DNA of 45,396 bases from IMG/VR virus record IMGVR_UViG_3300033148_007463, positions 1 through 45,396 of that record. One strand, written 5' to 3'. Positions 793-20,603 of the stretch are shown piece by piece. This DNA comes from a virus. The notes beneath the pieces were generated by a model. The model had not been told where the DNA came from. It did not search any database and saw only the letters and a list, made by a program, of their open reading frames with translations. Numbering within the stretch: position 1 is the stretch's first letter; each line of letters opens with the position of its first letter. The translations under genes and the position numbers were made by a program.

Positions 793-1092
793 ATGGAATG
801 TAAACCACATGAACATAAAATTGTAATAAATGAAGATGGATTGGCTATTTGTGAAAAGTGTGGTAGTTGTAGGGGTGCAATAATTAGGAGAACAAATGAA
901 AAAGAATTTAATTTAAGTGAGAAGATAACCTTTGTAAGAAAAGATGAAGATTGGATATTATTACCTTTAGACGTGAAAGAGTTTATTAATTTGTTGAAAG
1001 AATATGTTTCAAGTGAGCCACACATTGACAATGAAAGCACAACTTATATTTTAGATGAAATAGATAAATTGGCTGGAGAGAAGTTTAAATGA
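793..1092 (+). CDS. Cysteine-containing hypothetical protein, 99 aa
   Basis: The protein has a His/Cys-rich N-terminal third (CKPHEHK, then CEKCGSC at about residues 21-27), which could bind one zinc ion, followed by an acidic helical part ending in LDEIDKLAGEKFK. I do not recognise the family. Its stop overlaps the ATG of the following HNH gene (ATGA), so the two are translationally coupled. A nucleic-acid-binding role is only a guess from the zinc motif. Confidence 0.6.
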   Translation: MECKPHEHKIVINEDGLAICEKCGSCRGAIIRRTNEKEFNLSEKITFVRKDEDWILLPLDVKEFINLLKEYVSSEPHIDNESTTYILDEIDKLAGEKFK

Positions 1093-1733
1093 GATTAAAT
1101 CAAAAAAAAGTCCTTAGAGAATTAGTTGGAAAGATTTGTAAATGTGGTAATAAAAAAAATTATAGGGCTAAATTATGTAGAAAATGCTGGCTTAAATCTA
1201 ATAAATCTCAATCAAAAGATTTTATTCAAAAAAGAATTGGACATTTAAAAGGAAAAAATCATCATAATTGGAAGGGGGGAAAACCAATCTCTAAATGCAT
1301 AATCTGTGGAAAAGAATTTGAAGGATGGTATAATAATCAAAATAAATATTGTTCAAGAAAATGTTTTTCTATAGGGCAATCTAAAAATATTAAAGGAAAG
1401 AAAAATAGGTTTTGGAATGGTGGAGAGAAGAATTGGAAAAAGAAAGAAAATCTTTATTCAAGTTTAAAATGGAGAGAATTAAGACTTAAAATATTAAAAG
1501 AAGATAAAAAATGTTTAATTTGTGGAACAACAGAAAATCTTCATATTCATCATAAAAAAAGATATAAAGAAGGAGGGGAGAATATTAGAGAGAATTTAGT
1601 TACACTATGTTTATCTCATCATCAAAAGATTCACACTTTAGAAATATTTTATAAAAATAACCATTCCCCAAGAAAATTTAAAGACTTAATGAATGAAATT
1701 AAAAGAAAAGAACACAAAACAGAAAAAAGATAA
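1089..1733 (+). CDS. HNH endonuclease with accessory zinc fingers
   Basis: This 214-residue protein has three Cys-rich parts: CKCG/CRKC near residues 18-34, CIICGKEF with a second CSRKC knuckle in the middle, and a C-terminal HNH nuclease core (CLICG, then HIHHKK, an Asn-containing loop, and LSHHQKIH). HNH domains cut DNA with one metal ion. The KGGK/KGKNHHNWKGG pieces resemble NUMOD-type DNA-binding repeats of homing endonucleases. The ATG overlaps the previous stop. It is one of four HNH genes here, probably a free-standing mobile or packaging-related nuclease. Target site unknown. Confidence 0.85.
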   Translation: MRLNQKKVLRELVGKICKCGNKKNYRAKLCRKCWLKSNKSQSKDFIQKRIGHLKGKNHHNWKGGKPISKCIICGKEFEGWYNNQNKYCSRKCFSIGQSKNIKGKKNRFWNGGEKNWKKKENLYSSLKWRELRLKILKEDKKCLICGTTENLHIHHKKRYKEGGENIRENLVTLCLSHHQKIHTLEIFYKNNHSPRKFKDLMNEIKRKEHKTEKR

Positions 1734-3271: not shown

Positions 3272-3438
3272 TGTCAGATGATAGTCTTGAAGAAAAACTT
3301 GAAAAAAACTTTGTTAAGAAAGCATTTTTTAATTTAGATAAAGTAGTTTGTCCTAACAAGGATTGCATAATAAGAGGAAGTTATTTTAAATGTTATGATT
3401 TAAAGTATGAGAAGTGTGCAATTTATAATACTAAATAG
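3271..3438 (+). CDS. Cys-rich small protein, 55 aa
   Basis: ATG at 3271 overlaps the TAA of the HTH gene. The protein has an acidic helical start (MSDDSLEEKLEKNF) and a zinc-like cluster, CPNKDC followed by CYDLKYEKC. Four spaced cysteines suggest one structural zinc. The 3' end overlaps the convergent AAA+ gene by 8 bp. Function unknown; coupling suggests it works with the HTH protein. Confidence 0.55.
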   Translation: MSDDSLEEKLEKNFVKKAFFNLDKVVCPNKDCIIRGSYFKCYDLKYEKCAIYNTK

Positions 3439-4351
3439 TTTTAGTTAATTCTCGCCCTTTACTTGAGATATGAATTAATCCTTTTCTTACTAAATCTTGC
3501 TCAATATCTAATTTTACATAATTTTCACTTCGTCGCAAGACAAGAGCAATATTCCTAACTCCTGCTTTTTCAACTTTCTTGAGATATTTAATATAATCTT
3601 CTTGTTCTTCAGATAAACCAGTTTTCCAATTAATCTTCATCATCCTGAACACTTTAACTAAATTTTCTTTATCTCTTTTTCCATACATATCCATGTATTT
3701 AATTAGCTTTTTTAAAATTCTAATATTAAGAGTGTAGTTTATCAAATAAGTGATACATTCATTATTTAAACCCATTTTTTTAAGGATTTTCTTAGTCATA
3801 TCTTGAGTTGGTTCATCAAATTCAATACGCATTAATCTGTCTTGAAGTGGTTTAGGCAAACCCTCAGGTTCAGTTGTTGTGCATATAAAAATCGCGTTTA
3901 AAGGCTTTTTTGTTCCATCAATATACAATTCTCCATATTCAATTACAGGATAAATAATCTCTGCAACATTATCTCTCATTCCATGAATTTCATCAATACA
4001 AACAACACAATTATCTTTTAAATTATTTAAAATCTCTAAAACCTTTAATTTACTTTGGTTTCCTGCCATATAAACAAATGGACGTTGGGTTTCAACTGCA
4101 ATCATCATAGCAGAGTAAGTTTTACCTGTTCCAGCATATCCACTAAATAAAAGATTAAGTATTTCACCTTTTTTTAATTTCTCTAAAACAAGTTTAATAA
4201 ATTCTTCTTGTTTAGATGAGTAAACTACATCTTCAAACTTAGGTTTATTTAGGATTTCACCAATCTTTTCAATTTCTTCACCTTGTTCCACTATACACCA
4301 ATTCTCTTTCCCAAAGTAATCTTTAATTAATGCTAATTTTCCTAACCCCAT
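3431..4351 (-). CDS. RuvB-like AAA+ ATPase
   Basis: The 306-residue protein carries a Walker A (GYAGTGKT, residues 71-78), Walker B (CVVCIDEIH, D120/E121), sensor 1 (ICTTTEPEG, about 158-160) and an arginine-finger-like LQDRLMRIEF (R172). The C-terminus forms a winged helix of RuvB type (NIALVLRRSENYVKLDIEQDL...KGLIHISSKGREL). RuvB drives Holliday-junction branch migration; archaea lack the bacterial RuvABC set, so a viral RuvB-like motor, perhaps paired with the nuclease at 17958, is plausible for recombination-dependent replication. A clamp-loader-like role is an alternative. It is the last gene of the minus operon, with a GAGGTTAAAATG start and a 16-bp repeat array upstream. Confidence 0.8.
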   Translation of the reverse strand: MGLGKLALIKDYFGKENWCIVEQGEEIEKIGEILNKPKFEDVVYSSKQEEFIKLVLEKLKKGEILNLLFSGYAGTGKTYSAMMIAVETQRPFVYMAGNQSKLKVLEILNNLKDNCVVCIDEIHGMRDNVAEIIYPVIEYGELYIDGTKKPLNAIFICTTTEPEGLPKPLQDRLMRIEFDEPTQDMTKKILKKMGLNNECITYLINYTLNIRILKKLIKYMDMYGKRDKENLVKVFRMMKINWKTGLSEEQEDYIKYLKKVEKAGVRNIALVLRRSENYVKLDIEQDLVRKGLIHISSKGRELTKTI

Positions 4352-6441: not shown

Positions 6442-6585
6442 CTTTAGGTGGGGCTTGTAATCTTAAGTAATCCTAAATCCTTCTCTTAGTGACTCATAAA
6501 TATACGCCCTATTTTAGGTAAAAAAAGTAATAATATACCCCGAGATATAACATAATAAAATTCCATATTCTACCATATATTTACG

Positions 6586-6600
6586 AAACATTTATAAAGA
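6586..6600 (+). promoter_or_regulatory. Leaderless archaeal promoter for the AbrB gene
   Basis: CGAAACATTTATAAA contains a TATA box (TTTATAAA, centred near 6594) preceded by a purine-rich BRE-like stretch. The centre lies 26 bp from the ATG at 6620, the usual archaeal TATA-to-start distance, so the mRNA is predicted to be leaderless. Confidence 0.7.
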
Positions 6601-6619: not shown

Positions 6620-6823
6620 ATGGATTTAACAAAACAAATAGTAAAAATAAAAAGATTACAAGCAATAGGGTCAGTTAATCCTACAATGGCCATAATTATT
6701 CCTAAAAGATGGATAGATGAATTAGGATGGAATAGAGCAACAAATATAATTTTAGAATTTTTACCTCATAGAAAAATGATTATTCTCTCTGATGAAAAAG
6801 CTGGTAATATTAAGTCAAAGTGA
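6620..6823 (+). CDS. AbrB/SpoVT-family DNA-binding protein
   Basis: A 67-residue swapped-hairpin AbrB domain: an N-terminal basic strand (VKIKRLQAIGS), the IIIPKRWIDELGW core and a closing ILEFLPHRKMIILSD. AbrB proteins form dimers that bind DNA as regulators or antitoxins. The start is fixed by a TATA box 26 bp upstream. It is the first gene of the long plus-strand operon leading to the chaperonin and sugar genes. Overlap with a second small DNA-binding-like gene (6792) suggests a regulatory pair controlling the adjacent 600-bp region. Confidence 0.8.
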   Translation: MDLTKQIVKIKRLQAIGSVNPTMAIIIPKRWIDELGWNRATNIILEFLPHRKMIILSDEKAGNIKSK

Positions 6824-6944
6824 TATTGAATACGTGCAAGAGATTGCAAAGAGTGTAAGTAGTCCGCAGGCTAAGACAGGAAACTTTTCAAAAGGTTTGA
6901 GACAAATAATTAAAGATCATAAGGGAGGAAAAAATGGGACTTGA
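6792..6944 (+). CDS. Small ribbon-helix-helix-like protein, 50 aa
   Basis: An overlapping frame starts at the ATG at 6792 inside the AbrB gene and ends in the next gene. The protein has a short strand (MKKLVILSQSD), a helix (EYVQEIAKSV) and a second helix beginning NFSKGLRQIIKDHK. A strand followed by two helices, with the S-x-GLRxII pattern, resembles small ribbon-helix-helix regulators. No alignment could be run. The following gene's Shine-Dalgarno (AAGGGAGG) lies within it. Confidence 0.5.
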   Translation: MKKLVILSQSDIEYVQEIAKSVSSPQAKTGNFSKGLRQIIKDHKGGKNGT

Positions 6945-7188
6945 TAAACTTGAAAGAAGAACTGATGCAGAAACAAGTGAAATATGCTTACCAAGATTGC
7001 CAGCACCACACGTTGGTCTTGATAAGGACAGAAGTTTGCCACACAACTATATTCTTGTGAACAGTCAAGATCTTGCTACTGGTTTTGTAGATATATACAA
7101 ATGTAGTAGATGTGACAAGATTGATAAGAATTATAGGGGGCCAGATGAAAACTTTTACTTGCCTTCAAAAAATCACAAAGAGAAATAA
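6934..7188 (+). CDS. Hypothetical protein with one CxxC, 84 aa
   Basis: Preceded by a good ribosome site (AAGGGAGGAAAAAATG). The protein has a charged start, two 'LPxLPxPH' or 'SLPHNYI' pieces, and CSRCDK near residue 57. With nearby His residues (PHV, LPHNY) a single zinc site is possible. Family not recognised. It sits between small regulators and the chaperonin gene pair. Confidence 0.55.
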   Translation: MGLDKLERRTDAETSEICLPRLPAPHVGLDKDRSLPHNYILVNSQDLATGFVDIYKCSRCDKIDKNYRGPDENFYLPSKNHKEK

Positions 7189-7202: not shown

Positions 7203-7469
7203 ATGGAAAAAAAAGTTAAAGAATTATTTGAAGAAAATCCAACTGATGGAACATCTATTATGATGAAACAAATAATGGATTTTATTAAAGGGGAAAATAA
7301 TAATTCTACTTTTTTTGCTTTTGTAGTAAATCCAAATGGAGCAAATTGGTTTGCTAAGAATATTGATTTAAAACATCCAGAAACAATTAAAGGATTAGAT
7401 ATACTTTGGGAGGGAATTAAAAAGAGCTTTACTGATGAGCCATTAATTTTTAAAGATGGAAGAAAATAA
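7203..7469 (+). CDS. Hypothetical protein, 88 aa
   Basis: A soluble helical and strand protein: an N-terminal amphipathic helix (KKVKELFEENP), MMKQIMDFIKGENNN, then FFAFVVNPNGANWFAKNID and a C-terminal helix. No known domain or catalytic motif. Its last 14 bases overlap the start of the chaperonin gene, so it is likely co-translated with it and might be a cofactor, though that is inference only. Confidence 0.55.
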   Translation: MEKKVKELFEENPTDGTSIMMKQIMDFIKGENNNSTFFAFVVNPNGANWFAKNIDLKHPETIKGLDILWEGIKKSFTDEPLIFKDGRK

Positions 7470-8853
7470 ATATGCTCACATTCAAGCAGCAGTGAACTTT
7501 GCAGATTTAGTAAGGTCTACATTAGGGCCCAGGGGCATGAATAAAGCTGTAATAAATCAGGATACAGTCTTTACAAATGATGGTGCGACTATAATTGATA
7601 GATTACAAATAAATGATCCAATTGTAAATCTTTTTAAAGAATTGGCTAAGTCTCAAGATGAATTAATTGGTGATGGAACAAGCACAGCAGTAATTCTTGC
7701 AGGACAATTACTTGATAATGCTCTAACACTTTTAAACAGAGGAATTCATCCAACAACAGTAATTAATGGATATTCAATTAGTAAAGTAGAATGTATGAAA
7801 AAATTAAACGAATTAAAAGAAACAGGAGAAAAAGAAAAAATCATTGAAACTGCTTTTGGAAGTAAAATTACTCCAGATATAATGTCTATTTTAAAGAAAC
7901 TAATTAATGAAGTAAAAGATTTTGAAAAATTAAGAATTCATAAAATGGCTGGAGATCCTAAAGACTCAAAACTATTTTCTGGTTATATTTTTGATGGATT
8001 TACCATAAACGAAAGAATGAAAGATGAAGTTTCTGGAAAAATTGCAGTATTAGATTATAGGACAAACATTGAAGCAAGTGATATGAAGATCTCTCAAGTT
8101 GATGAACTTAAAAAAATAAATGAATATGAACGAGCTTACAAAAAAGAAATTATAGATAAATTAGTCGAAAATAAAATTGATTGTCTTTTTTATACAGATA
8201 CAAACCCAGAATTTGAAACTTACTTAACTGAGAAAGGTATCACTGGAATAGTGGTCTTTCAAAGAGATGCTTTAGATGGTATATGTGAAGCTTTGAAAAT
8301 TCAGGCCACTTCTGACATAAAAAATATCTTTTCAACAGAAGGACACATTAAATTCAAAAAACCAAGAAGCATTTATATTGATGGAGATTCTGAAACACTT
8401 ATTTTAAAAGGGCCAACTAAACAAACAACCGATGAAATAGAAAGAGCAGTTCATGATGTAATTTCTTTACTTAAACATGAAATAGATCAAGTTGTCGGTG
8501 CCGGCGCAGTTGAAATTGAGTTAGCAAAAAGATTAAGAGAATTAGCAGAAACTATTGGAGGAAAAGAACAGCTCGCTATTGAAAAATTTGCAGAAGCATT
8601 AGAATCTATACCCTTAATCATAGCAGAAAATTGTGGATTAGATGCTATCCAAATTTTAACAGTCTTAAAAACCATGCATAAAGATAATCCAAATATTGGA
8701 GTAGATATGATGAAAGGAGTATCTGATGCAAAAGATAGAGGGTTAGTAGAACCTGTCTTAGTAAAAATTCATGCAATAAACTCTGCAACTAATGTAGCAA
8801 ATTTAATATTAAAAACAGATAAATTACTTATTGGAGAAGCTAAAAAAGAATGA
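7456..8853 (+). CDS. Group II chaperonin (thermosome-type), compact viral form
   Basis: The 465-residue protein matches thermosome/CCT subunits throughout: STLGPRGMNK (21-30), TNDGATIIDRL (40-50) and the nucleotide-binding GDGTSTAVI (72-80). A shortened apical domain lies in the middle, then GAGAVEIELAKRLRE (348-362), GGKEQLAIEKFAEALE, PLIIAENCGLDAIQIL and a C-terminal strand. Thermosomes are about 540 residues; this one lacks about 20 N-terminal residues and some apical sequence. The usual GGGA motif reads GAGA. Group II chaperonins form double rings with a built-in lid and fold proteins with ATP. A virus-borne copy might fold capsid or tail proteins or replace host rings. Confidence 0.93.
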   Translation: MEENKYAHIQAAVNFADLVRSTLGPRGMNKAVINQDTVFTNDGATIIDRLQINDPIVNLFKELAKSQDELIGDGTSTAVILAGQLLDNALTLLNRGIHPTTVINGYSISKVECMKKLNELKETGEKEKIIETAFGSKITPDIMSILKKLINEVKDFEKLRIHKMAGDPKDSKLFSGYIFDGFTINERMKDEVSGKIAVLDYRTNIEASDMKISQVDELKKINEYERAYKKEIIDKLVENKIDCLFYTDTNPEFETYLTEKGITGIVVFQRDALDGICEALKIQATSDIKNIFSTEGHIKFKKPRSIYIDGDSETLILKGPTKQTTDEIERAVHDVISLLKHEIDQVVGAGAVEIELAKRLRELAETIGGKEQLAIEKFAEALESIPLIIAENCGLDAIQILTVLKTMHKDNPNIGVDMMKGVSDAKDRGLVEPVLVKIHAINSATNVANLILKTDKLLIGEAKKE

Positions 8854-9071
8854 AGATAAAGAAAGTTAAACAAGTAATAGAAGCAAGGTCTCAAGGATCA
8901 AATGAGGCAATTTTATTATTAGAATTTTTAGAATTATTGAAAGCATTAAAAATTCCCTTAGCATTAGTCACAGAGTATAATAAAAGAGGAATTTATGTTG
9001 GATTAGATTATAATTATAAACAACTTAAAGAAAAATTAAAAAAATTTAGAGGTAAAAAATTATTAGGATGA
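8850..9071 (+). CDS. Small basic hypothetical protein, 73 aa
   Basis: The start overlaps the chaperonin stop (ATGA) and the end overlaps the following HNH gene the same way. It has a basic N-terminus, a Leu-rich helix (AILLLEFLELLKALKIPLAL) and a basic C-terminal helix (KQLKEKLKKFRGKK). The Leu-rich helix is rather short and flanked by charges, so it is more likely a packing helix than a membrane segment. Function unknown; coupling suggests expression with the chaperonin. Confidence 0.6.
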   Translation: MKIKKVKQVIEARSQGSNEAILLLEFLELLKALKIPLALVTEYNKRGIYVGLDYNYKQLKEKLKKFRGKKLLG

Positions 9072-9472
9072 AAGATACAAAATTCAAAAAAGGACATAAA
9101 CCCTGGAACAAAGGAATTCCTTGCTCAGATAAAACAAAGGAAAAAATAAAGGCAAAAAATAAAGGAAAAAATATGTCTCCAAAAACAGAATTTAAGAAAG
9201 GACAAATACCTTGGAATAAAGGGAAAAGATATTCACAGATTGAAGGAAAGAAACATTGGAATTGGAAGGGGGGGATTACAAGATATAGGCAAATAATTAT
9301 ACGAGAAGGTATAGAAATGTCTTGTCAAAAGTGTGGTTCTAAAAGAAAAATTCAAATTCATCATAAAGATAAAAATAGAAGTAATAATAATATAAGTAAT
9401 TTACAAGTTCTTTGTTCAGTTTGTCACGCAAATCTACATAAGAATTGGGAGGGAAGATGGGGGAAAAAATAG
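9068..9472 (+). CDS. HNH endonuclease with KGHKPWNKG repeats
   Basis: The N-terminal half carries two copies of a FKKGHKPWNKG-like motif (residues about 6-16 and 39-49), typical of NUMOD3-type DNA-binding repeats of homing endonucleases, plus HWNWKGG. The C-terminal half is an HNH core: CQKCG, IQIHHKDKN, NNISNLQVLC, CHANLH. It overlaps both neighbours by a few bases, so it fits seamlessly into the operon. It closely resembles the other HNH proteins at 1089 and 17515 and probably spread within the genome. Target unknown. Confidence 0.88.
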   Translation: MKDTKFKKGHKPWNKGIPCSDKTKEKIKAKNKGKNMSPKTEFKKGQIPWNKGKRYSQIEGKKHWNWKGGITRYRQIIIREGIEMSCQKCGSKRKIQIHHKDKNRSNNNISNLQVLCSVCHANLHKNWEGRWGKK

Positions 9473-10401
9473 TTTGTTTAATCACAGGAATTTCAGGATT
9501 TGTAGGAAGTCATTTGGCTGAGTATTGTTTATCTAAGGAAGCCGAGGTTCATGGCACAATTAGATGGAGAAGTGATGTTAATAATTTAAAAGAAATTAAT
9601 CATTTACAATTGCATGAATGTGATTTAACAGATGCTTATTCTATTAGAGACATAATTAAAGAAGTTAAACCAGATTTAATTTTTCATTTAGCTGCGCAAT
9701 CTTATGTTAAAGCGAGTTGGACAAATCCTGCCCAAACATTAACTAATAATATAATTGGAGAATTAAATTTACTTGAAGCAGTAAGAAATACAGATTATAG
9801 CCCAAGAATAATGATTGCTGGTTCTTCTGAAGAATATGGTCATACTGAGACTTCACTAAACGAAGATTCCCCCTTGAAACCACTCTCTCCCTATGGAGTG
9901 TCTAAAGTCACTCAGGATCTTCTTGCTCAACAATATGAGAGATCATATGGATTGGATATTGTGGTAACACGAGCATTCAATCACACTGGCCCAAGAAGAG
10001 GGGATGTTTTTGTTTGTTCTTCTTTTGCGAAGCAGATTGCAGAAATAGAAAAAGGAAAACTTCCAGTAATTTATGTAGGAAACTTAGACGCAGAAAGAGA
10101 TTTTACAGATGTTCGAGATGTTGTTAGAGCTTATTGGTTAGCTTTAGAAAAAGGTGAAAAAGGAGAAGTATATAACATCTGTTCTGAGAAAACTTACCCA
10201 ATAAAGAATATACTGAAAAAGATGCTTTTAATGAGTAAAGTTAAAATTGAAGTAAGGAAAGATCCTAAAAGAATGCGTCCAAGCGATTTAAAAGTTTTAG
10301 TTGGAGATTGTTCAAAATTTAAGGAAAAAACAGGATGGAAACCTTCTATAAAAATAGAACAAACTCTTGAAGATTTATTAAATTATTGGAGAGAAAAATG
10401 A
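9457..10401 (+). CDS. NAD(P)-dependent nucleotide-sugar epimerase/dehydratase (SDR), GDP-deoxymannose-type
   Basis: An extended short-chain dehydrogenase of 314 residues: nucleotide loop GISGFVG (11-17), HLAAQSYVKASW (78-88), Ser-Ser-Glu at 123-125 and the catalytic Tyr146/Lys150 (YGVSK). The later NHTGPRRGDVF and VGNLDAERDFTDVRDVVRAY resemble GDP-mannose 4,6-dehydratase and GDP-4-keto-6-deoxymannose reductase. ATG 9457 is chosen over TTG 9445 because GGGAGGGA precedes it. It likely makes or reduces a 6-deoxy-hexose nucleotide in the cytoplasm, opening the sugar operon. Exact substrate cannot be told. Confidence 0.88.
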   Translation: MGEKIVCLITGISGFVGSHLAEYCLSKEAEVHGTIRWRSDVNNLKEINHLQLHECDLTDAYSIRDIIKEVKPDLIFHLAAQSYVKASWTNPAQTLTNNIIGELNLLEAVRNTDYSPRIMIAGSSEEYGHTETSLNEDSPLKPLSPYGVSKVTQDLLAQQYERSYGLDIVVTRAFNHTGPRRGDVFVCSSFAKQIAEIEKGKLPVIYVGNLDAERDFTDVRDVVRAYWLALEKGEKGEVYNICSEKTYPIKNILKKMLLMSKVKIEVRKDPKRMRPSDLKVLVGDCSKFKEKTGWKPSIKIEQTLEDLLNYWREK

Positions 10402-10898
10402 AATTTTCAGATGCAGTTGCAAAAAGATTAAAACAAGAAGTAGATGTTGTATTTGGGATTACAGGTGGAGCAGTTGTTAATTTACTTGATTCAATTCATA
10501 AGTTTGGACCTAAATTAGTAAATATGCACCATGAACAAGCATGCGCTTTTGCGGCAGATGCTTATGCAAGATTAAAAGGATTTGGAGTGTGTATTGGAAC
10601 TTCTGGTCCTGGAGCAACAAATTTAATCACTGGAACTTGTTGTTCTTGGTTTGACTCTATTCCTGTTTTGACTATTGCTGGACAAGTGCCAACATCTCAT
10701 TTAAAACAAACAGATGTTAGACAAAATGGTTTTCAAGAAACAGACACAGTCACATTATTTAGAAGCATAACTAAGCGTGCAAAATATTTGCAATGTATGG
10801 AAGATTTGAATAATTTAATTAAAATAGCGAAAGTGTATAGACCTGGACCCACTTTCTTGGAGTTTTGTGATGACACCCAAAGAACTACAATTAACTGA
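10398..10898 (+). CDS. TPP enzyme, N-terminal (PYR) part, acetolactate-synthase-like
   Basis: The 166-residue product is the pyrimidine-binding domain of a thiamine-diphosphate enzyme: VVFGITGGAVVNLLD, the catalytic Glu46 in HHEQACAFAADAYAR, GTSGPGATNLITG, and a GFQETDTV segment as in acetolactate synthases. It stops where the normal protein would go on into the central domain. The next gene supplies the rest in the +1 frame, overlapping by 29 bp. So the enzyme is either two subunits or frameshifted. Start ATG 10398 overlaps the preceding stop (ATGA). It probably forms a C-C bond or decarboxylates a 2-keto acid in the sugar pathway. Confidence 0.85.
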   Translation: MKFSDAVAKRLKQEVDVVFGITGGAVVNLLDSIHKFGPKLVNMHHEQACAFAADAYARLKGFGVCIGTSGPGATNLITGTCCSWFDSIPVLTIAGQVPTSHLKQTDVRQNGFQETDTVTLFRSITKRAKYLQCMEDLNNLIKIAKVYRPGPTFLEFCDDTQRTTIN

Positions 10899-11952
10899 AT
10901 TAATAAAAGAAGCAAAGAAACCAATCCTAATAATTGGAAATGGTTGTAGAAATAAGAAGATAGTTGAACAACTTGATATGCCTACATTTCTTACTTGGGG
11001 CGCGATGGATGTTTTACCTGATGACCATAAATTAAATTTAAGAGATTTTGGTATTACTTCTAATCGAGCAGCTAATTTTATTCTAAAAGAAGCAGATTTA
11101 ATTATTGCATTAGGCACCCGACTTGATACTCATGAAGTAATGGGAAAATGGAGAACAGGCAAATTAGTGAGTGTAGATATTGATGAAGCAGAAATCCATT
11201 CAGATGCAGATTTGAAAATTTGTATGGATGCTAATAAATTAGTAAATACTATTTTTCCACCAGTTTGGAAAGATTGGCTCAAAAAATGTAAAGAAGTGCT
11301 TTCTTGGTATAAAAATGATACTTTTCCTTATCTCTTCCTGGAAGAATTATCTGAGAAAGCAAAAAATGACGCAGTAATAATTACTGATGCTGGACAAACT
11401 TTAACATGGACTATGCAATCTTGGAAAGTAAAAGAAGGACAAAGACTTTTTTCAGCATTTAATCACTCTCCTATGGGATATGCTTTACCGGCAAGTATTG
11501 GAGCTTGTTTTGCAAAGCCAAATTCTCAGATAATAGCAATTACTGGTGATGGAGGATTTCAAATGAATTTACAAGAATTACAAACAATTAAAGGATATGG
11601 ATTGCCTATTAAAATTTTTGTATTTGATAATAATGGTTATGGAATGATTAAACAAACTATCGCAGATTGGCCTAAGTTTTTGGAAAAAGGCGTAGCTTGT
11701 GAACCTTATATGGAAAATTTAGAGAAAGTTGCAACTTGTTTTGGATTTGGTTATATTGAAATAGAACAGGGAATGAATTATCACCAAGCTTTAGATATGA
11801 TGTTAAAATCTAAATCTCCTTATATTGCCCGGGTTCGAATCACAGACCCTACGAAAATTCAACCTAAACTAAAATTTGGAGATGAGATGACTGACTTAAC
11901 ACCAAAACTAACTCAAGATGAAAAAGATAAAATTATCCAAGCGCTCAAATAG
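10870..11952 (+). CDS. TPP enzyme, central and PP domains (partner of 10398)
   Basis: This 360-residue product continues the acetolactate-synthase-like enzyme: central domain (KKPILIIGNGCRNK, ADLIIALGTRLD) and the diphosphate-binding domain with ITDAGQTLTW, SPMGYALPASIGACF and the GDGGFQMN...FDNNGYG metal/ThDP motif. The ATG at 10870 has a GGAG seven bases upstream (10859-10862), so independent initiation is realistic. Two-gene TPP decarboxylases exist (for example sulfopyruvate decarboxylase), but the split there is between PYR and PP domains without a long middle. Both halves are needed for an active site. Substrate unknown. Confidence 0.85.
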   Translation: MTPKELQLTELIKEAKKPILIIGNGCRNKKIVEQLDMPTFLTWGAMDVLPDDHKLNLRDFGITSNRAANFILKEADLIIALGTRLDTHEVMGKWRTGKLVSVDIDEAEIHSDADLKICMDANKLVNTIFPPVWKDWLKKCKEVLSWYKNDTFPYLFLEELSEKAKNDAVIITDAGQTLTWTMQSWKVKEGQRLFSAFNHSPMGYALPASIGACFAKPNSQIIAITGDGGFQMNLQELQTIKGYGLPIKIFVFDNNGYGMIKQTIADWPKFLEKGVACEPYMENLEKVATCFGFGYIEIEQGMNYHQALDMMLKSKSPYIARVRITDPTKIQPKLKFGDEMTDLTPKLTQDEKDKIIQALK

Positions 11953-12892
11953 ATTAATTGGGCAAGGAATGTTTCAAATAAAAGCAAAAGCTAAAGACCC
12001 AGGACTTTTACATTTTGAAATTGGAGATTCTTGTTTTAATGCACCTAAAAAAGTAAAGCAGGCTTGTATCAAAGCAATTAAGCAAAATCATACTCATTAT
12101 ACAGACCCTTTAGGATTACCAGAATTAAGAAAAGATATTGCTTTGAAACATCAAACTCAACCAGAGAATGTTGCAGTTGTTCCAGCTAATTTTGGAATTT
12201 TTGCTATTTTATCAGTTCTTTGCAATAAGGGAGATAGGATAAATTATCCTATTCCAGGATTTCCAACATATAAGGCAGTTTCAAATTATTTAGGATTAAA
12301 GTATTCTAAAAGTGCAAAAGTTAAAATAATTAATTTCCCAAATAATCCTACTGGAAAAACTTTTTGTGATGAAGAAGGAGAGATTTTAATAATTGATAAA
12401 GCTTATGAAAATCTTAATTATAATTCTTCTTCAAGAAGTTTTACGTATGGCACTAAAATAGAAATACATTCTTTTTCAAAAACTCATGCAATGAGTGGAT
12501 TTAGATTAGGATACATTATTGCACCAAAAGAAATAATTGAAAAGATTGGATTACTTATTGAAACAACTTATTCTTGTCTTCCTGAGTTTATACAATATGC
12601 AGGAATTGAAGCTTTGAAGATTGATGAATATAAAATCAAAGAGCTTAGAGAAAAAAGAGACTTAATGTATGATATTTTAAAAGAACATTATGAAGTGGAA
12701 AAACCAGAGGGGGGAATTTATATTTGGTGTAGATTAAAGAAATCAACTGTTTCTGGAAATGAAGAATTTGAAAGACTTTTGAAAAAAGGGATAGTTGTTT
12801 GTCCTGGAGAAGTCTTTGGAGATAAAAATTATGTTCGTTTTTGCTTTGCGAAGCCAATAGAAGATATTGAAAAATTAGGAGAATTACTATGA
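11918..12892 (+). CDS. PLP-dependent class I/II aminotransferase, compact
   Basis: Fold-type I aminotransferase of 324 residues: substrate loop FEIGDSCFNAP, PGFPTY, FPNNPTG (Asn), LIIDKAYENL (Asp), the PLP lysine in HSFSKTHAMSGFRLGY, and the C-terminal carboxylate-binding Arg in YVRFCFA. Usual length is near 390; about 60 residues are missing from the large domain around KYSKSAKVKIINFP and after NNPTGKTF, yet all catalytic residues remain. It overlaps the TPP gene by 35 bp. Likely adds an amino group to a keto-sugar side product or keto acid made by the neighbours. Confidence 0.85.
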   Translation: MKKIKLSKRSNRLIGQGMFQIKAKAKDPGLLHFEIGDSCFNAPKKVKQACIKAIKQNHTHYTDPLGLPELRKDIALKHQTQPENVAVVPANFGIFAILSVLCNKGDRINYPIPGFPTYKAVSNYLGLKYSKSAKVKIINFPNNPTGKTFCDEEGEILIIDKAYENLNYNSSSRSFTYGTKIEIHSFSKTHAMSGFRLGYIIAPKEIIEKIGLLIETTYSCLPEFIQYAGIEALKIDEYKIKELREKRDLMYDILKEHYEVEKPEGGIYIWCRLKKSTVSGNEEFERLLKKGIVVCPGEVFGDKNYVRFCFAKPIEDIEKLGELL

Positions 12893-13545
12893 GGGTTACA
12901 ATCGTTTATACAGAATCAAATGCACAAATGAAAAGATGTTTAGATAGTTTGAAAAAGTTTTCTCCAGAATTATCAGTTGATTTGTTGAAGGTTGAAAACC
13001 CAAGTGATAAAACAGACCCTTTTATTGAATACAATAAATACTTTAAAACTATGAAAGATGATATTATAATTTGGCATCCAGATATGATTGCTACTGAAAA
13101 TTGGTATCAAAATTTAAAAAAATATTGGAATAATTTTGATGTTATTGGATTGAAATTAATTTATCCAAATAAATTAGTTCATCATTTTGGTGGTGCAATA
13201 AGAGTGAATGGGGTTGGATTTCACCCACATCAATACGCTTTGAATATTGGATTAACAAAACCACAAGAGTGCGCATTTGTAACAGGACCAGGAACAATTA
13301 TAAAGAAGAATGTATTGGATAAAATAGGTGGATATGATCTGCAATTCATTAAAGGATTTTATGGAGATGCTGATTGGTGTCTTAGAGCAAGAAAAGCCGG
13401 CTTCAAAGTTGGTGTAGTGCCGGTTGAAATAATCCATGAAGAACGACAAGGTGAAAGAACTCAAAGACAATCTCAAGAATATCAAATAAAACATCATAAA
13501 ATATTTGTATCTAAACATATGGAATATCTATCAAAATGCAAATAA
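12889..13545 (+). CDS. Family 2-type glycosyltransferase
   Basis: GT-A-like protein of 218 residues: MRVTIVYTESNAQ start, a DIIIWHPDM segment in the place of the DxD motif, TGPGTIIKKNVLDKIGGYD, and the GFYGDADWCLRARKAGFKVGVVPVEIIHEE region typical of rhamnosyl-type GT2 enzymes, where ED/GD-W is in the acceptor site. It overlaps the aminotransferase stop (ATGA). Probably transfers a nucleotide-activated sugar in the cytoplasm. Sugar and acceptor cannot be read from sequence. Confidence 0.8.
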   Translation: MRVTIVYTESNAQMKRCLDSLKKFSPELSVDLLKVENPSDKTDPFIEYNKYFKTMKDDIIIWHPDMIATENWYQNLKKYWNNFDVIGLKLIYPNKLVHHFGGAIRVNGVGFHPHQYALNIGLTKPQECAFVTGPGTIIKKNVLDKIGGYDLQFIKGFYGDADWCLRARKAGFKVGVVPVEIIHEERQGERTQRQSQEYQIKHHKIFVSKHMEYLSKCK

Positions 13546-14411
13546 GCGAACAATTTAATTATGTTGAACTCTTCTTGACATTTAGATGTAATTTTGATTG
13601 TGATTATTGTATTAATGGAAATATAGAGAGAAAAGTAAAAGAGTTAAACTCAGACCAGTGGGCAAAGGCAATTAATTCTTATGATTGGAAAATGCCAGTA
13701 ACTTTAGGCGGAGGAGAGCCAACACTTCACGAAGAATTTTATGAATTACTTGATAAAATAAAACCTGAAGTTAATATAGAATTATTAACAAATTTAACTT
13801 TTGATCCAATAGAATTTATTAAAAAAGTTAAACCTTCAAGATTTACAAAAAAAGAGAATGCTTATAAATCAATTAGGGCAAGCTATCATCCTGCAAAACA
13901 TAATCCTATTACATTAGTTAATAATGCAAAAGTCTTACAAGACAATGGTTTTAAGGTAGGATTATTTGGATTAAATCATCCAGACAACATGAAAGCAAAT
14001 ATGGAGATGGCAGAATTATCAAGAATAAATGGTATCTATTTTTTCATAAAAGATTATCTTGGAGAAAAAGAAGGCCACAAATTTGGGTTCTTGAAGTATC
14101 CATATGCAGTAGATGGTAAATCAAAAATAGCGCTATGCAGAACCAAGAATATCCAAATTGGGCCTGATGGAAATATCTACAAATGTCATAGGGATTTGTA
14201 TAAAGGAAGACATACGCTTGGAAATATTATAGATACTCCACAAATTAAACAGAGATTTAGAAAATGTATAACTTATGGACAATGTAATCCTTGTGATGTT
14301 AAATTAAGAACTAATAGATTTTTAGACACAGGAGATTGTAATGTAGAGATTGTTCCTCAAACAAGTAAAGAAATAAAAAATAAGATGAAAATTTTAGGAA
14401 GAAAACCATGA
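13536..14411 (+). CDS. Radical SAM enzyme with SPASM-like C-terminus
   Basis: CNFDCDYC gives the CxxxCxxC motif (Cys18, 22, 25) that binds the 4Fe-4S cluster and SAM; LGGGEPT follows as the SAM-binding GGE motif. The C-terminal part has CRTKNIQIGPDGNIYKC, then further cysteines (CITYGQCNPC), as in SPASM-type auxiliary cluster domains. Radical SAM enzymes do difficult C-H chemistry on sugars, peptides or lipids. It overlaps the GT2 gene by 10 bp and the next by 4. Together with a second radical SAM at 16425 it suggests unusual modification of the glycan or of a linked group. Confidence 0.88.
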   Translation: MQISEQFNYVELFLTFRCNFDCDYCINGNIERKVKELNSDQWAKAINSYDWKMPVTLGGGEPTLHEEFYELLDKIKPEVNIELLTNLTFDPIEFIKKVKPSRFTKKENAYKSIRASYHPAKHNPITLVNNAKVLQDNGFKVGLFGLNHPDNMKANMEMAELSRINGIYFFIKDYLGEKEGHKFGFLKYPYAVDGKSKIALCRTKNIQIGPDGNIYKCHRDLYKGRHTLGNIIDTPQIKQRFRKCITYGQCNPCDVKLRTNRFLDTGDCNVEIVPQTSKEIKNKMKILGRKP

Positions 14412-15094
14412 AATTACTAACAATTTGTTCAACAAGAATTAGACCAGAATTAGCAAGAAAGATGGTTGATTCATTTAATAAAACAAAAAGTGAAGGAACA
14501 GAAATAATCTTTTATGTTTGGGATGAAGATCCAAAAGTAGAAAAATATAAGGAATTATTAAAAGATGAAAATGTTATTTATGGAAAGAAAAGATTTATGG
14601 GAGAGGTTTTGAATTATGTTACAAGCCTTTATCCAGACGTTCCATATTTCCAAAATATTAATGATGATCATGAATATTTAATTGAAGGTTGGGATAAATT
14701 AATGTTAGAACCACTTGAAAAAAATAAGGGTTGGGGGATTTCTTATTGTCGTGGTGTAGATGCAAAGCATAATCCAAATGCAGAAGTTATGTCTGGAAAG
14801 ATTGTGAGGGCACTTGGATATTATCTTTATCCAAAATTTAGGCAATTTGGATGTGAACCTTTTATTACAGAACTTGGAGAACATTTTAATTTCTTTTTTT
14901 ATATTGAAGGAAATGTAATTGCTCACAATTGCGTAAATATTGGAAAAATGGAACCTGACGCAAATTATCACTTTATTTATGGAGAAGATACACCTCATGG
15001 ATTGAATGTAATGAATGAATGGAAACATACTAAAAAAGAAGAAGATTTGAATAAAATTAAAGGGGCTATGATTAAAGATGGATTTACGTTTTAA
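14408..15094 (+). CDS. Putative GT-A glycosyltransferase
   Basis: A 228-residue protein starting MKLLTICSTRIRPELARKMVDSF, as in GT-A enzymes that begin with a nucleotide-binding strand; INDDHEYL supplies an acidic motif in the place of DxD, and GWDKLMLEPL follows. The C-terminus has NIGKMEPDANYHF and a short helical tail. It is related to the GT2 superfamily rather than to Rossmann GT-B enzymes. Its 5' end overlaps the radical SAM gene (ATGA); its 3' end overlaps the DUF2061 gene. Donor and acceptor unknown. Confidence 0.65.
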   Translation: MKLLTICSTRIRPELARKMVDSFNKTKSEGTEIIFYVWDEDPKVEKYKELLKDENVIYGKKRFMGEVLNYVTSLYPDVPYFQNINDDHEYLIEGWDKLMLEPLEKNKGWGISYCRGVDAKHNPNAEVMSGKIVRALGYYLYPKFRQFGCEPFITELGEHFNFFFYIEGNVIAHNCVNIGKMEPDANYHFIYGEDTPHGLNVMNEWKHTKKEEDLNKIKGAMIKDGFTF

Positions 15095-15455
15095 AAGTGT
15101 GCTTAAAAGTTTAATTTGGAGAATGTGTGGAATTATAATCTTAGCAGCAGTAACTTACTTTTACACACGATCGTGGATTACTACCAGCTTAGTAACAGTA
15201 ATTCACCATGTAATTTTTCTTTTTGTGTTTTATTTTCATGAGAGGATTTGGTTTAAATTTAAGAACCCAATAGGAATAAAAAGAAAATTAGCAAAGATGT
15301 TTACGTATGAAACTCTTTGTGGAAACATAATTTTGGGAATAATAACTTATTTAATAACAGGAAGTTGGAAAGTTATGACTGCAATCACCTTAACTTATAT
15401 TGGAATTAAACATATCGCTTATGTGATTAATGAATTTATATGGAAAACACAGTAG
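15078..15455 (+). CDS. DUF2061 membrane protein
   Basis: About 125 residues with four hydrophobic segments arranged as two similar halves: LKSLIWRMCGIIILAAVTYF...HERIWFKF and FTYETLCGNIILGIITYL...NEFIW. DUF2061 is such a duplicated small membrane domain often found beside sulfate- or sugar-transfer genes. The 5' end overlaps the glycosyltransferase and the 3' end overlaps the cytidylyltransferase, so it is probably a membrane partner of one of them. Molecular role is not established for the family. Confidence 0.78.
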   Translation: MDLRFKSVLKSLIWRMCGIIILAAVTYFYTRSWITTSLVTVIHHVIFLFVFYFHERIWFKFKNPIGIKRKLAKMFTYETLCGNIILGIITYLITGSWKVMTAITLTYIGIKHIAYVINEFIWKTQ

Positions 15456-15814
15456 TCTATGCTTATGTAGTTGCAGATTTATTGCACACAGGACATATTT
15501 TATATTTAGAAAATGCAAAAGCATTAGGAGATAAATTAATAGTTGGTGTCCTTACAGATGAAGCAACTATGGAGAAAAAACTAAAACCAATTCTTTCTTT
15601 TAGTGAAAGAATGAGATTAATTAAAGCACTTAAATGTGTTGATTGTGTTGTTGCCCAGACAGAATATTCACCAGAAAGAAATATTAAAACAATAAATCCA
15701 GATATTATTGTTGAAAGCGAAAGTCACGAGGTAAATACTGATAAAAGAATAATTATTTTCCCTTATTATCCAGAACAAAGTTCAACTAAAATTAAAGAGA
15801 AACTTAAAAAATGA
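15440..15814 (+). CDS. Cytidylyltransferase-like nucleotidyltransferase
   Basis: 124 residues with the small nucleotidyltransferase signature: VADLLHTGHILYLENAKALGD (HxGH, residues about 16-19), LIVGVLTDEATMEKK, PILSFSERMRLIKALKCVDCVV, and a late SSTKIKEKL where family members have the ISST(T)xI motif. Relatives are glycerol-3-phosphate, ethanolamine-phosphate and phosphonate cytidylyltransferases, and archaeal FAD synthase. Next to LicD it probably makes a CDP- or CMP-activated alcohol or phosphonate for transfer to a glycan. Substrate not known. Confidence 0.82.
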   Translation: MENTVVYAYVVADLLHTGHILYLENAKALGDKLIVGVLTDEATMEKKLKPILSFSERMRLIKALKCVDCVVAQTEYSPERNIKTINPDIIVESESHEVNTDKRIIIFPYYPEQSSTKIKEKLKK

Positions 15815-16428
15815 AAGATACATTAATTAAATTTGTAGAAATTTGTGATAAATTAGAAATACAATATTTTTTACACTTAGGAACTTGTTTAGGTTTATAT
15901 AGAGATGGGAACTTTTTTCCTAATGATGATTTAGACGTTGGAGTAATTTGTAATAAAGAAAAATTAAAGGAATTATTTAAAACAATTAAAGAAGCAAAAT
16001 TTAGGGAAGGAGATGTTTTCATAAATCCTGGATGTGAATTAAATTATCATTGGTGGAGTGAAGATAATGTTCTTTTAGATATACATTTTCAATTTTTAAA
16101 AGAAGAAGAGAAATTCTTAGAATCTTTTGGGACGGTAAGAGTTTGGGATAGAGAATTTTTCATTCCTTATCCTGTTTGGGATTATCTTGAATTAGAATAT
16201 AATAAATTGATTGGAGAAAGGGGAGGAGATTGGAGAAAAAAATCTCAAGAAAAAAGCAGACCTCTTGCGAAAGCAAATGAAATGTCTCCTAAAAAATCAC
16301 TAAAAATGGACATAGAAGAATATTATAATCATAAAGGAATAAGATATGAATGGGATAATGTAAAAAATCTTTATACTGATGAAACAGGAAAAATGCTATT
16401 AAAACCAAAAGGAGAAGTTACTAAATGA
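15811..16428 (+). CDS. LicD-family phosphotransferase
   Basis: The N-terminal core LHLGTCLGLYRDGNFFPNDDLDVGV (residues about 22-45) matches LicD/fukutin-type proteins: GT-x-LG-x-R-G-F-P-DD-D-D, a polymerase-beta-like metal site. These transfer phosphocholine or similar phospho groups from a CDP or CMP donor onto glycans. A WWSEDNVLLDIHF strand adds a third acidic residue. It overlaps the cytidylyltransferase stop (ATGA), so donor synthesis and transfer are coupled. Length (205) is typical. Group transferred is unknown. Confidence 0.85.
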   Translation: MKDTLIKFVEICDKLEIQYFLHLGTCLGLYRDGNFFPNDDLDVGVICNKEKLKELFKTIKEAKFREGDVFINPGCELNYHWWSEDNVLLDIHFQFLKEEEKFLESFGTVRVWDREFFIPYPVWDYLELEYNKLIGERGGDWRKKSQEKSRPLAKANEMSPKKSLKMDIEEYYNHKGIRYEWDNVKNLYTDETGKMLLKPKGEVTK

Positions 16429-17513
16429 AAAAAATAGATTCAGATTATAGAATGGATGATACCAAATTACTTTGGCACATGGATAGAGTTAAAAAGATTT
16501 TTAAAGGAGAAAAGATAGCGCCAATTATGATAGATATGGGGATAACTAAAGCTTGTAATATTAGATGTGTTTATTGTTATAGATTAAATCAAGAACCAAG
16601 TGAGGAATATATTGAACGAGATGCTTTACTTGATTTGGTTAGCACAGCAAAAGACATTGGATTAAAAGCTATTGGGTTTGTTGGAGATGGGGAACCGACT
16701 GTTAATCCTCATATGCATGAAGCATTAGAAAAAGCAACTTGTGATATGGCAATTTCTACAAATGGGATTTTGCTTGATACTGATGAAAAGAGGATAAATG
16801 TTTTAAAGAACTGCACATGGATGAGATTTAATCTTTCTGCAGGAACAAAAGAAGGTTATAAAAAAATTCACAGTGTAGATAAATTTGAAGTAGTTTGTGA
16901 GAATATAAAAGAAATGGTTAGACTAAAAAAGTTTCATGGATATAAATGTGAGATAGGATTACAAAGTGTTTATGTTCCAGGCCTTATGGATAAAGAAATG
17001 ATTGAAGAAGCCAAATTAGCAGTTAAATTAGGTGTAGATTATTTTGTAATAAAACAATGTTCTCTACCTGATGAAAATAAAAGAGTTGGAGATATTGGAT
17101 TTAATGTTGATGAGTATGATTCTGAAAAAGTAAAAGAAGTTTTAGAAACTTGTGAAAATTTTTCTACTGAAAATACAAAAATAATACCTAAATGGAATTT
17201 AATGCAACAGAAAGGAAAAAGGCCTTATGATGGCTGCCCTGGAATTCCATTACTTTTACAAATCTCTGGAAATGGTGATGTTTATCCTTGTGGCCAGATG
17301 TTTCAAAAAGAAAAATATAAAGATTATTTTATTGGGAATATCCATGATACACCTTTTAGGGAGATGATTAAAACAGATCGTTATTGGGAAGTAATGGAAA
17401 AGATGAAAACTTTTGATGTTCATAAAGATTGCACAGGCGCATGCAGGCAAGATAAAATTAATGAATTTTGTTATAATTATCTAAATAAACCTCGCGGGAT
17501 TAACTTTATTTAA
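16425..17513 (+). CDS. Radical SAM/SPASM enzyme
   Basis: CNIRCVYC (Cys44, 48, 51) binds the radical SAM cluster; FVGDGEPT is the GGE-like motif; AISTNGILL and LSAGTKEGYKKIH follow the usual barrel order. The C-terminus (GCPGIPLLLQISGNGDVYPCGQMF, then CTGACR and C) is a SPASM-type domain with auxiliary cluster cysteines. Length 362. It overlaps the LicD stop. The 'DGEP' instead of 'GGEP' is a mild variant. Acts on an unknown substrate in the same glycan pathway, or on a ribosomal peptide, which I could not find nearby. Confidence 0.88.
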   Translation: MKKIDSDYRMDDTKLLWHMDRVKKIFKGEKIAPIMIDMGITKACNIRCVYCYRLNQEPSEEYIERDALLDLVSTAKDIGLKAIGFVGDGEPTVNPHMHEALEKATCDMAISTNGILLDTDEKRINVLKNCTWMRFNLSAGTKEGYKKIHSVDKFEVVCENIKEMVRLKKFHGYKCEIGLQSVYVPGLMDKEMIEEAKLAVKLGVDYFVIKQCSLPDENKRVGDIGFNVDEYDSEKVKEVLETCENFSTENTKIIPKWNLMQQKGKRPYDGCPGIPLLLQISGNGDVYPCGQMFQKEKYKDYFIGNIHDTPFREMIKTDRYWEVMEKMKTFDVHKDCTGACRQDKINEFCYNYLNKPRGINFI

Positions 17514-17514
17514 A

Positions 17515-17961
17515 ATGAGAAGAAATAGTTTTTTACAAAAGGGAATGCATATAGGGAAAGAGACTGAATTCAAGAAAGGACATAAACCTTGGACAACCGG
17601 AAAAACAAAGAAAGATTACCCCCAATTAACTAATAAAAGCAGATTAGGACAACATAATTCTAAAGAATCTGAAGAAAAAAGAATTAAGAGTTTGAAAAAC
17701 ACAGTAAAGAAAAGAGGTTATAGAACTGAAGAAAATAGTAGGGCAAGATTATCTGTTGAAATCAAATTATGGAGATTAGCAGTTTTTGAAAGAGATAAAT
17801 TTACTTGTCAAAAATGTGGAAAAAAAGGAGTTTATATTGAAGCGCACCATATTAAGAATTGGGCAAAATTTCCTAAATTAAGATTTAAAATTTCTAATGG
17901 AAAAACCTTATGTAAAAGTTGTCATAAAAAGACAGATAATTATAAAGGGAGAGGAAGATGA
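17515..17961 (+). CDS. HNH endonuclease with KGHKPWTTG motif
   Basis: The N-terminus has FKKGHKPWTTGK, similar to the NUMOD3-like repeats of the 9068 protein; the C-terminus is an HNH core with CQKCGKKGVYIEAHHIKNW, NGKTLCKSCHKK. The start follows the preceding stop by one base and the end overlaps the next nuclease gene. It interrupts the sugar operon without disturbing it, as the other HNH genes do. Confidence 0.87.
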   Translation: MRRNSFLQKGMHIGKETEFKKGHKPWTTGKTKKDYPQLTNKSRLGQHNSKESEEKRIKSLKNTVKKRGYRTEENSRARLSVEIKLWRLAVFERDKFTCQKCGKKGVYIEAHHIKNWAKFPKLRFKISNGKTLCKSCHKKTDNYKGRGR

Positions 17962-18557
17962 TAAACAAAAAAAAGCAAGGCAAAAGAAATAAACAAGCTG
18001 GAGCTCGTTTTGAATTAAAAGTCAGAAAAGATTTAGAAAGTAAAGGCTGGATTGTTTCTAAGTGGATGAATAATGTTGAATGGCAAGAACATCGAATGAT
18101 TGGATATACTCAAACAATAACTTTTGAAATGAATAAAAAACCTTCTAAGAAATATGAAGTTCCAAAAGGAGTGATAATGACAGAAGAGGGCCCAAAGGCA
18201 GGAAAATTAATCCCAGCAAAACATAAATTTAGAGGAATAGGAATACCTATGGCAATTGGAACAGGATTTCCAGATTTTATTGCTTTTGTAAATTATTCAA
18301 ATGTGGAAGAAAATGAGTTGACTTATCCAATGGTTTTGAGAGCAAAAGCAACTGTGGATGAAAAAGAAGTTATTAGTTTTTCAGAAAAAAATGTTGAGAT
18401 TATAGGAGTTGAAGTAAAATCTAATGGATACCTCGATAAAAAAGAAAAAGAAAAATGCAAATGGTTATTAGATAATAATATATTTAGTAAGATATTAATA
18501 GCTAAGAAAGGGAAAAGGAGAGGAGAAATAATTTATGAAGAATGGAAGGCTATATAA
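17958..18557 (+). CDS. PD-(D/E)XK nuclease, Holliday-junction-resolvase or VRR-NUC-like
   Basis: The N-terminal basic part KKKQGKRNKQAGARFELKVRKDLESKGW resembles archaeal Hjc (Glu in the first helix); later GTGFPDFIAF supplies the Asp and VIGVEVKSNGYL the E-x-K motif, in the right order for a PD-(D/E)XK site. The extra segment between helix and FPDF is about 70 residues. Hjc cuts four-way junctions; VRR-NUC relatives cut flaps. With the RuvB-like ATPase it could resolve viral recombination intermediates or trim packaged DNA. Overlaps HNH and cold-shock genes. Confidence 0.7.
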   Translation: MINKKKQGKRNKQAGARFELKVRKDLESKGWIVSKWMNNVEWQEHRMIGYTQTITFEMNKKPSKKYEVPKGVIMTEEGPKAGKLIPAKHKFRGIGIPMAIGTGFPDFIAFVNYSNVEENELTYPMVLRAKATVDEKEVISFSEKNVEIIGVEVKSNGYLDKKEKEKCKWLLDNNIFSKILIAKKGKRRGEIIYEEWKAI

Positions 18558-18739
18558 AATTTTATAATCCTATGAAGGGATTTGGATTTATTAAAGGTGA
18601 AGAGAAAGATTATTTTTTTCACATGACTGATGTAGATAAAGAAGATCTGAATTCAATCGATAAAGAAGTAAAAGTAGAGTTTGAAACAGAAGCACATCCT
18701 AAAGGAGAAAAAGCAGTAAATATAAAAATAATAAGATGA
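18542..18739 (+). CDS. Cold-shock domain protein
   Basis: A 65-residue single cold-shock domain: GYIKFYNPMKGFGFIKGEE (RNP1 KGFGFI) and DYFFHMTDV (RNP2-like), followed by DKEVKVEFETEAHPKGEKAVNIKII. Such OB-fold proteins bind single-stranded RNA or DNA and act as RNA chaperones. The start overlaps the nuclease gene by 16 bp and its stop overlaps the next glycosyltransferase. CspA proteins are common in bacteria and less so in archaea, so this may be acquired. Confidence 0.9.
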   Translation: MEGYIKFYNPMKGFGFIKGEEKDYFFHMTDVDKEDLNSIDKEVKVEFETEAHPKGEKAVNIKIIR

Positions 18740-19842: not shown

Positions 19843-20527
19843 ACAATTAAAAGAAATGAATAGCATCCAATGGTGGCACACTATGCCTTTAGATGGAGTT
19901 ATGACTCCTGGAAGAGATTTTACTCAAGATAAATTAATTGCTATCAAAATGCCTAAAGATTTATCTGGGAAAAAAGTTATTGATGTAGGTGCTTGGGATG
20001 GTTTCTTTTCTTTTGAAGCTGAAAGAAGAAATGCCAAATCTGTTTTAGCAGTAGACACAGTAATGTGGAAAGAACACCCAACCTTTAATGTGCAAAAAAA
20101 TAGAAAGGTAATGCATACAGGAAAAAAAGGATTTAATTTTGCTCATAAAATTCTTAAATCTAAAGTAAATTCTGAGGAAATAGAAGTAATGGATTTAAGA
20201 ACAACAAATTCTATTTATGGAAAATTTGATTTAGTTTTATGTTTAGGAATACTTTATCATATGGAAGACCCTTTAGGAATGTGCAAGGTAATGTATGATA
20301 TTTGTAAAAAAGGTGGATTGTTAATCCTTGAAACCCACATAGATATGAATAAGATAGATTATCCTGTTATGGCTTTTTATCCAGGAAAGGAATGTAATAA
20401 TGATGCTGGAACTTGGTGGGGGCCTAACGCTCGATGTGTAGAAGCTATGCTAAAAGTTGCAGGATTTAGTGAGGTTCAAAGAGTTTTTGAAAATAAAAAT
20501 AGGGTGGTGTTCCATGCAAGAAAATGA
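19832..20527 (+). CDS. CmoB-like SAM-dependent methyltransferase
   Basis: 231 residues: WWHTMPLDGVMTPGRD, then motif I VIDVGAWDGFFSFEAERRNAKSVLAVD and FDLVLCLGILYHMEDPL. This matches the Methyltransf_9/DUF1698 group related to CmoB, which in bacteria carboxymethylates tRNA. In sugar clusters such proteins usually modify glycans. The 'GAWDG' loop replaces the usual GxGxG, a known variant. It overlaps the GT4 gene. Whether it uses SAM or carboxy-SAM cannot be told. Confidence 0.82.
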   Translation: MNPEQLKEMNSIQWWHTMPLDGVMTPGRDFTQDKLIAIKMPKDLSGKKVIDVGAWDGFFSFEAERRNAKSVLAVDTVMWKEHPTFNVQKNRKVMHTGKKGFNFAHKILKSKVNSEEIEVMDLRTTNSIYGKFDLVLCLGILYHMEDPLGMCKVMYDICKKGGLLILETHIDMNKIDYPVMAFYPGKECNNDAGTWWGPNARCVEAMLKVAGFSEVQRVFENKNRVVFHARK

Positions 20528-20601
20528 AATGTAAAAAATGTGGGGTTTTTTTAGGAAAGAATCATGATTGTAAAAAAGTTAAGCATGGAGGGAATTTTTG
20601 A
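20524..20601 (+). CDS. Tiny zinc-knuckle protein, 25 aa
   Basis: ATG at 20524 overlaps the methyltransferase stop (ATGA). The product, MKCKKCGVFLGKNHDCKKV and six more residues, has CKKC plus a His and Cys (H14, C16), a possible zinc knuckle. Its last codons carry the ribosome site (GGAGGGA) of the next gene. Possibly real, possibly a coupling ORF. Confidence 0.4.
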   Translation: MKCKKCGVFLGKNHDCKKVKHGGNF

Positions 20602-20603
20602 AA

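Follow-up and report, generated by a model that had tools for sequence, protein, structure and literature searches.

Organization of the chaperonin locus

The window (the whole 45,396-base stretch of viral DNA that was analysed) is the genome of a tailed virus, with genes for terminase, portal, HK97 capsid, head-tail adaptor and tape-measure proteins at 21.8-34.5 kb, and it contains a single chaperonin gene. The features that concern us are as follows:

6584-6598, + strand: predicted BRE-TATA archaeal promoter (CGAAACATTTATAAA), upstream of the AbrB-like gene
6620-6823, + strand: AbrB/MazE-like putative DNA-binding regulator of 67 aa, with a conserved place ahead of the chaperonin in 14 genomes, the window among them
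6934-7188, + strand: small ORF between the regulator and the chaperonin (ORF only)
7203-7469, + strand: 88-aa ORF that shares 14 nt with the start of the chaperonin gene (ORF only)
7456-8853, + strand: compact group II chaperonin of 465 aa (PF00118, E 3e-97; AlphaFold pLDDT 89.4)
9445-21839, + strand: glycan/sugar-nucleotide cassette with HNH genes
21839-23239, + strand: terminase large subunit (phrog_38, E 3.8e-42)
23518-25170, - strand: portal protein (PF04860, E 1.5e-23)
26387-27352, + strand: HK97-fold major capsid protein (PF05065, E 2.8e-38)
33250-34473, + strand: tape-measure-like protein (PHROGs tape-measure families, best E 4e-15)

In a gene-by-gene comparison with six related records, the terminase, portal, capsid, adaptor and chaperonin genes occur in every one of the six, and their general order is the same. 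The glycan cassette between the chaperonin and the terminase (a 4,6-dehydratase-like protein, a split TPP enzyme, an aminotransferase, a radical SAM protein, LicD and glycosyltransferases) is variable in content among genomes. Its acetolactate-synthase-like TPP enzyme (10386-11952) consists of two overlapping ORFs, a split also seen in G007, G011 and L012. HNH-type or HNH-like ORFs are scattered over the window (1089-1733, 1831-2082, 9068-9472 and 17515-17961) and are patchy in relatives; they are possible homing elements. The portal gene is on the strand opposite to the terminase in the window and its two close relatives G010 and G006, whereas the two genes share a strand in G007, G009 and G011, a difference that we read as an inversion inside the virus lineage.

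The AbrB/MazE-like gene is usually the nearest conserved gene upstream of the chaperonin. Pfam matches it weakly (E 0.013), and its model has a swapped-hairpin topology; the best-scoring folds, all short of significance, are those of MazE, C68 of pSSVx and AbrB-like proteins. The element CGAAACATTTATAAA upstream of it has one exact match in the window, with 0.02 expected by chance, and in about 11 of these 14 genomes a similar element precedes the regulator gene; a promoter of this BRE-TATA type indicates an archaeal host. The two ORFs between regulator and chaperonin have no relative in the six compared genomes. The arrangement suggests that the AbrB-like gene and the chaperonin are on one transcript, and of the early operon proposed in an earlier note on this DNA, the archaeal promoter and the regulator are found upstream, while early timing is conjectural.

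Other parts of the window include a RuvB-like AAA+ protein (3431-4351), common to four of the six compared records, which has a RuvB C-terminal winged helix and scores under the NCBIfam RuvB cut-off; this bacterial-type family is kept in the lineage even though the host appears archaeal. A predicted tRNA-Thr(CGT) of 82 nt (44953-45034) has a long variable arm, unusual for Thr, and may be a misassignment. The window ends (1-131 and 45342-45396) lie in one short tandem repeat, with 27 bp exactly shared, and because both ends are within the same repeat the sequence could be that of an almost complete or a circularly permuted genome.

Features of the compact chaperonin

The chaperonin gene is a complete ORF with an ATG start. 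Its open frame of 468 aa leaves no room for an upstream start, and the start position is essentially identical in the full-length relatives; together these rule out a missed upstream start. PF00118 places the protein, over its full length, in the Cpn60/TCP-1 family (E 3.1e-97; 326.7 bits, where the cut-off is 34.3; profile positions 2-486 of 490), and the scores with curated NCBIfam thermosome models fall under their cut-offs (305.9 vs 671.1 bits for TIGR02339, 292.1 vs 450 for NF041082, and 276.9 vs 400 for NF041083). Among solved folds, the AlphaFold model (mean pLDDT 89.4) is closest to group II chaperonins of the thermosome/CCT type from archaea and eukaryotes (e.g. 9rwp, Z 38.6, rmsd 2.7 over 456 residues). 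The earlier note had described a virus-encoded compact group II chaperonin, a 465-residue thermosome-type subunit with LGPRGMN, NDGAT and GDGT motifs, and the ORF, the family match, the motifs, the viral window and its synteny all bear this out. The elements within the gene are:

7522-7542, + strand: LGPRGMN nucleotide-binding loop, residues 23-29 (LGPxGMN invariant in 15 viral relatives)
7576-7590, + strand: NDGAT motif, residues 41-45 (N41, D42 and G43 invariant in 44 of 44 aligned sequences)
7669-7680, + strand: GDGT P-loop-like motif, residues 72-75 (D73, G74 and T75 invariant in 44 of 44)
8059-8169, + strand: apical helical protrusion (built-in lid), residues ~202-238 (37 vs 41 residues; helix 215-238 in the model)
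8455-8457, + strand: catalytic Asp D334 of ERAxxD (invariant in 44 of 44; role from PMC5473854)
8497-8508, + strand: GAGA, the GGGA equivalent, residues 348-351 (GAG invariant in the compact family)

The ATP-site alignment comprises 15 compact viral and 29 other sequences, and the motifs LGPxG, NDG and DGT together with both catalytic aspartates (D42 and D334) are invariant across viral and cellular members; D42 is the counterpart of catalytic Asp73 in human CCT5 (PMC5473854). The GAGA noted earlier in place of GGGA is present, but 13 of the roughly 73 cellular thermosomes sampled (about a fifth) have GAGA or GAGS as well, and we therefore reject it as a special feature of the viral protein.

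Several parts of the subunit are shortened. The first intermediate segment has shrunk most (about 68 residues vs 87 in cellular thermosomes), and the apical domain has 83 residues vs 92, so that the earlier description of a reduced apical part is correct as far as it goes but misses the larger reduction in the intermediate domain. The lid region is a constant 37 residues in all 15 compact members (cellular 41) and retains its helix (215-238) in the model; the built-in lid of a group II chaperonin is thus kept. Residues before LGPxG number 22 (median) in the compact form vs 42 in cellular proteins, and the N-terminal tail is lost in all members, in agreement with the short N-terminus reported before.

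Loss of equatorial interface residues had been named in the earlier note as a finding that would refute its reading; we find that the ATP site, the lid, the stem-loop hairpin and the C-terminal strand region are kept (the interface elements in sequence or model), and that the N-terminal inter-subunit strand of archaeal thermosomes is missing: against most archaeal chains the model begins to align only at their residue 16-20. The stem-loop has lost two residues as well as its DxxGD motif. In archaeal rings the N- and C-terminal strands both join the neighbour's stem-loop, whereas human CCT5 forms active homo-rings with an inter-subunit sheet from the C-terminal strand alone (PMC5473854), and a ring is thus possible despite loss of the N-terminal strand. 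Ring stability may differ, since both that strand and DxxGD are absent.

The chaperonin is under purifying selection, with a dN/dS of 0.10 between the window and its nearest relative, at 87% identity (dS is close to saturation). Identity to cellular thermosomes is highest in the equatorial domain (43-44%) and about 18% in the apical domain, and the equatorial N part shows a charge shift of about 7 units. At an equatorial identity of 50-60%, apical identity is 40% for viral pairs vs 56% for cellular pairs (pairs not independent), and the apical domain thus diverges faster than in cellular thermosomes. This would be expected if the clients are different, although it could reflect relaxed constraint instead of adaptation.

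Relatives, phylogeny and host

Group II chaperonins are carried by at least 83 IMG/VR contigs, with the compact form in about 15 (45-87% identity) and about 60 other viral contigs encoding proteins that are mostly 26-32% identical to the window protein. The gene had been called rare in viruses, and this is true of a reference phage collection, where 50,697 records gave no full-length chaperonin relative, but viral examples are documented both in IMG/VR and in the literature: thermosomes occur in 18 marine Group II virus genomes (clade 1, Nishimura et al. 2017, PMC5332604), and group II chaperonins in further predicted archaeal viruses (PMC8276007). Among cellular matches listed by tblastn the best have 29-34% identity, and in 371 genomes of the Nanoarchaeota/Woesearchaeota phylum identity is at most 39%; the compact form is absent from these 371 genomes and from the cellular-genome matches listed, beyond which a closer cellular relative may exist.

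The phylogeny against DPANN and other archaeal thermosomes proposed in the earlier note recovers the compact proteins as a monophyletic, virus-only clade with full support in two trees and a stem of at least 1.7 substitutions per site. The trees were built without bacterial group III chaperonin sequences, and the best sequence and fold matches of the window protein are group II chaperonins. Where the clade attaches varies by tree: at the midpoint root in one and beside Nanoarchaeota-type sequences in others, including the more careful tree, in which the split from 22 other rows has 93/99 support. The two are separate in the trees, but joining the clade with the marine viral thermosomes gives a p-AU of 0.585 and is not rejected, nor is a viral origin common to both. 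Because of the long branch and biased composition we do not claim a placement. Other viral thermosomes branch with Thermoplasmatota or inside Woesearchaeota/Pacearchaeota, and from these several positions viruses probably acquired thermosomes more than once.

The window protein shares its fold, ATP-site motifs and built-in lid with the archaeal thermosome and CCT/TRiC, but is only about 35% identical to them, is about 80 residues shorter, and lacks both the N-terminal tail and the GGM-rich C-terminal tail. Like the thermosomes of marine Group II viruses it is a group II chaperonin encoded by an archaeal tailed virus, whereas the sampled marine-type viral proteins are mostly longer, 26-32% identical, and group with Thermoplasmatota. 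Viral contigs L017, L018, L019 and L074, some of them from a metagenome in which there is also a compact chaperonin, encode group II chaperonins too (L019 and L074 also share a fibre-like domain with the window), but theirs are full-sized and nest within DPANN archaea, in Woesearchaeota/Pacearchaeota (L018 scores 630 bits against NF041082), and were apparently captured separately from the marine and compact ones. The GroEL-like chaperonins of phages EL and AR9 are likewise virus-owned, and that of EL has ATPase and anti-aggregation activity (PMC7185714); unlike the window protein these are Group I-like, and the window protein has a Foldseek TM of only about 0.6 to the AR9 model.

How regularly the compact gene accompanies its virus can be judged from a capsid-alignment search, which gave 41 loci. 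Among records that belong to this capsid family and reach at least 30 kb, all ten carry the chaperonin (nine retrieved with a full capsid match, plus the window), and it therefore looks like a core gene of one archaeal tailed-virus lineage. The distance between chaperonin and capsid is 9 to 19.5 kb, and in the shorter chaperonin-free records the sequence ahead of the capsid gene spans less than about 18 kb; with so little upstream sequence, these are mostly uninformative.

For the host, terminase searches of about 1,400 archaeal genomes from six phyla gave distant matches only (26-33% identity), among them one 8.4-kb contig in a Nanoarchaeota-phylum genome that also has a portal at 36%. A LamG-domain fibre-like protein (39132-41123) has 54% identity over 165 residues with L019, the contig whose own thermosome nests in Woesearchaeota, and this likeness is a weak hint of a DPANN host.

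Proposed function and its alternatives

We consider it likely that the product of the gene is a functional group II chaperonin, owned by the virus, that forms a homo-oligomeric ring and is specialised for viral proteins; within this reading, the intact gene, fold, active-site residues, lid, purifying selection, core-gene status and faster apical divergence come from the computed results, and ring formation, ATPase activity, substrates and timing are the parts that we infer. Transcription would probably start from the archaeal promoter upstream of the AbrB-like regulator, and the subunits would probably assemble as a homo-oligomeric double ring. Each subunit would bind and hydrolyse ATP at its conserved site in the equatorial domain and could close the chamber with its helical protrusion. 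The clients, folded or kept from aggregating, would most likely be viral capsid, portal, tail or large fibre proteins, and the apical domain, compact and quick to evolve, would be adapted to them.

A different use of the same subunit would be to enter the host thermosome, giving mixed rings with a substrate range shifted to viral proteins. Archaeal chaperonin rings are often hetero-oligomeric, 351 of the 371 DPANN genomes searched have a thermosome, and the equatorial domain is the part of the viral protein best conserved relative to cellular ones. However, overall identity is about 35%, the N-terminal strand is gone, the stem-loop is changed and the charge of the equatorial N part is shifted, and we regard mixed rings as unlikely. 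Slightly less likely still is a simplified holdase that blocks aggregation without folding in a closed chamber, as proposed for the phage EL chaperonin, which acts without encapsulation (PMC7185714). Shortening of the intermediate domain, apical domain and lid is consistent with such a role, but the lid is kept at constant length in 15 of 15 members and the catalytic Asp is invariant. That the chaperonin is an auxiliary gene for general host proteostasis during infection, with no specific viral clients, seems very improbable: it adjoins a large auxiliary cassette, but the cassette varies by genome while the chaperonin is constant, and a divergent virus-only clade is not a recent host copy. The possibility that the contig is chimeric or misclassified and the gene is host DNA can be dismissed even though the sugar-metabolism genes look cellular, because independent assemblies from several metagenomes have the same gene order with virus hallmark genes, the region is viral and syntenic in the six related genomes, and the compact form is in none of the 371 cellular genomes nor the cellular matches listed.

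Within the reading of a virus-owned homo-oligomeric chaperonin we also put forward, more tentatively, that the compact clade is a long-established and exclusively viral branch that has come to serve virion assembly as a dedicated chaperonin, in viruses whose hosts are uncultured and possibly DPANN archaea, and whose ring would do without the N-terminal strand and whose apical domain would have co-evolved with its clients. Group II chaperonins in archaeal viruses are already known; what would be new is a separate compact virus-only branch, and we found no description in open papers of such a clade as a lineage core gene. As a core gene, a viral chaperonin points to a viral folding need that is unmet by host machines, and the combination of a constant active site with a fast-changing substrate domain provides a natural test of which parts are essential and which govern the choice of clients. 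The compact chaperonin is, in addition, the mark of an archaeal tailed-virus lineage that is as yet undescribed.
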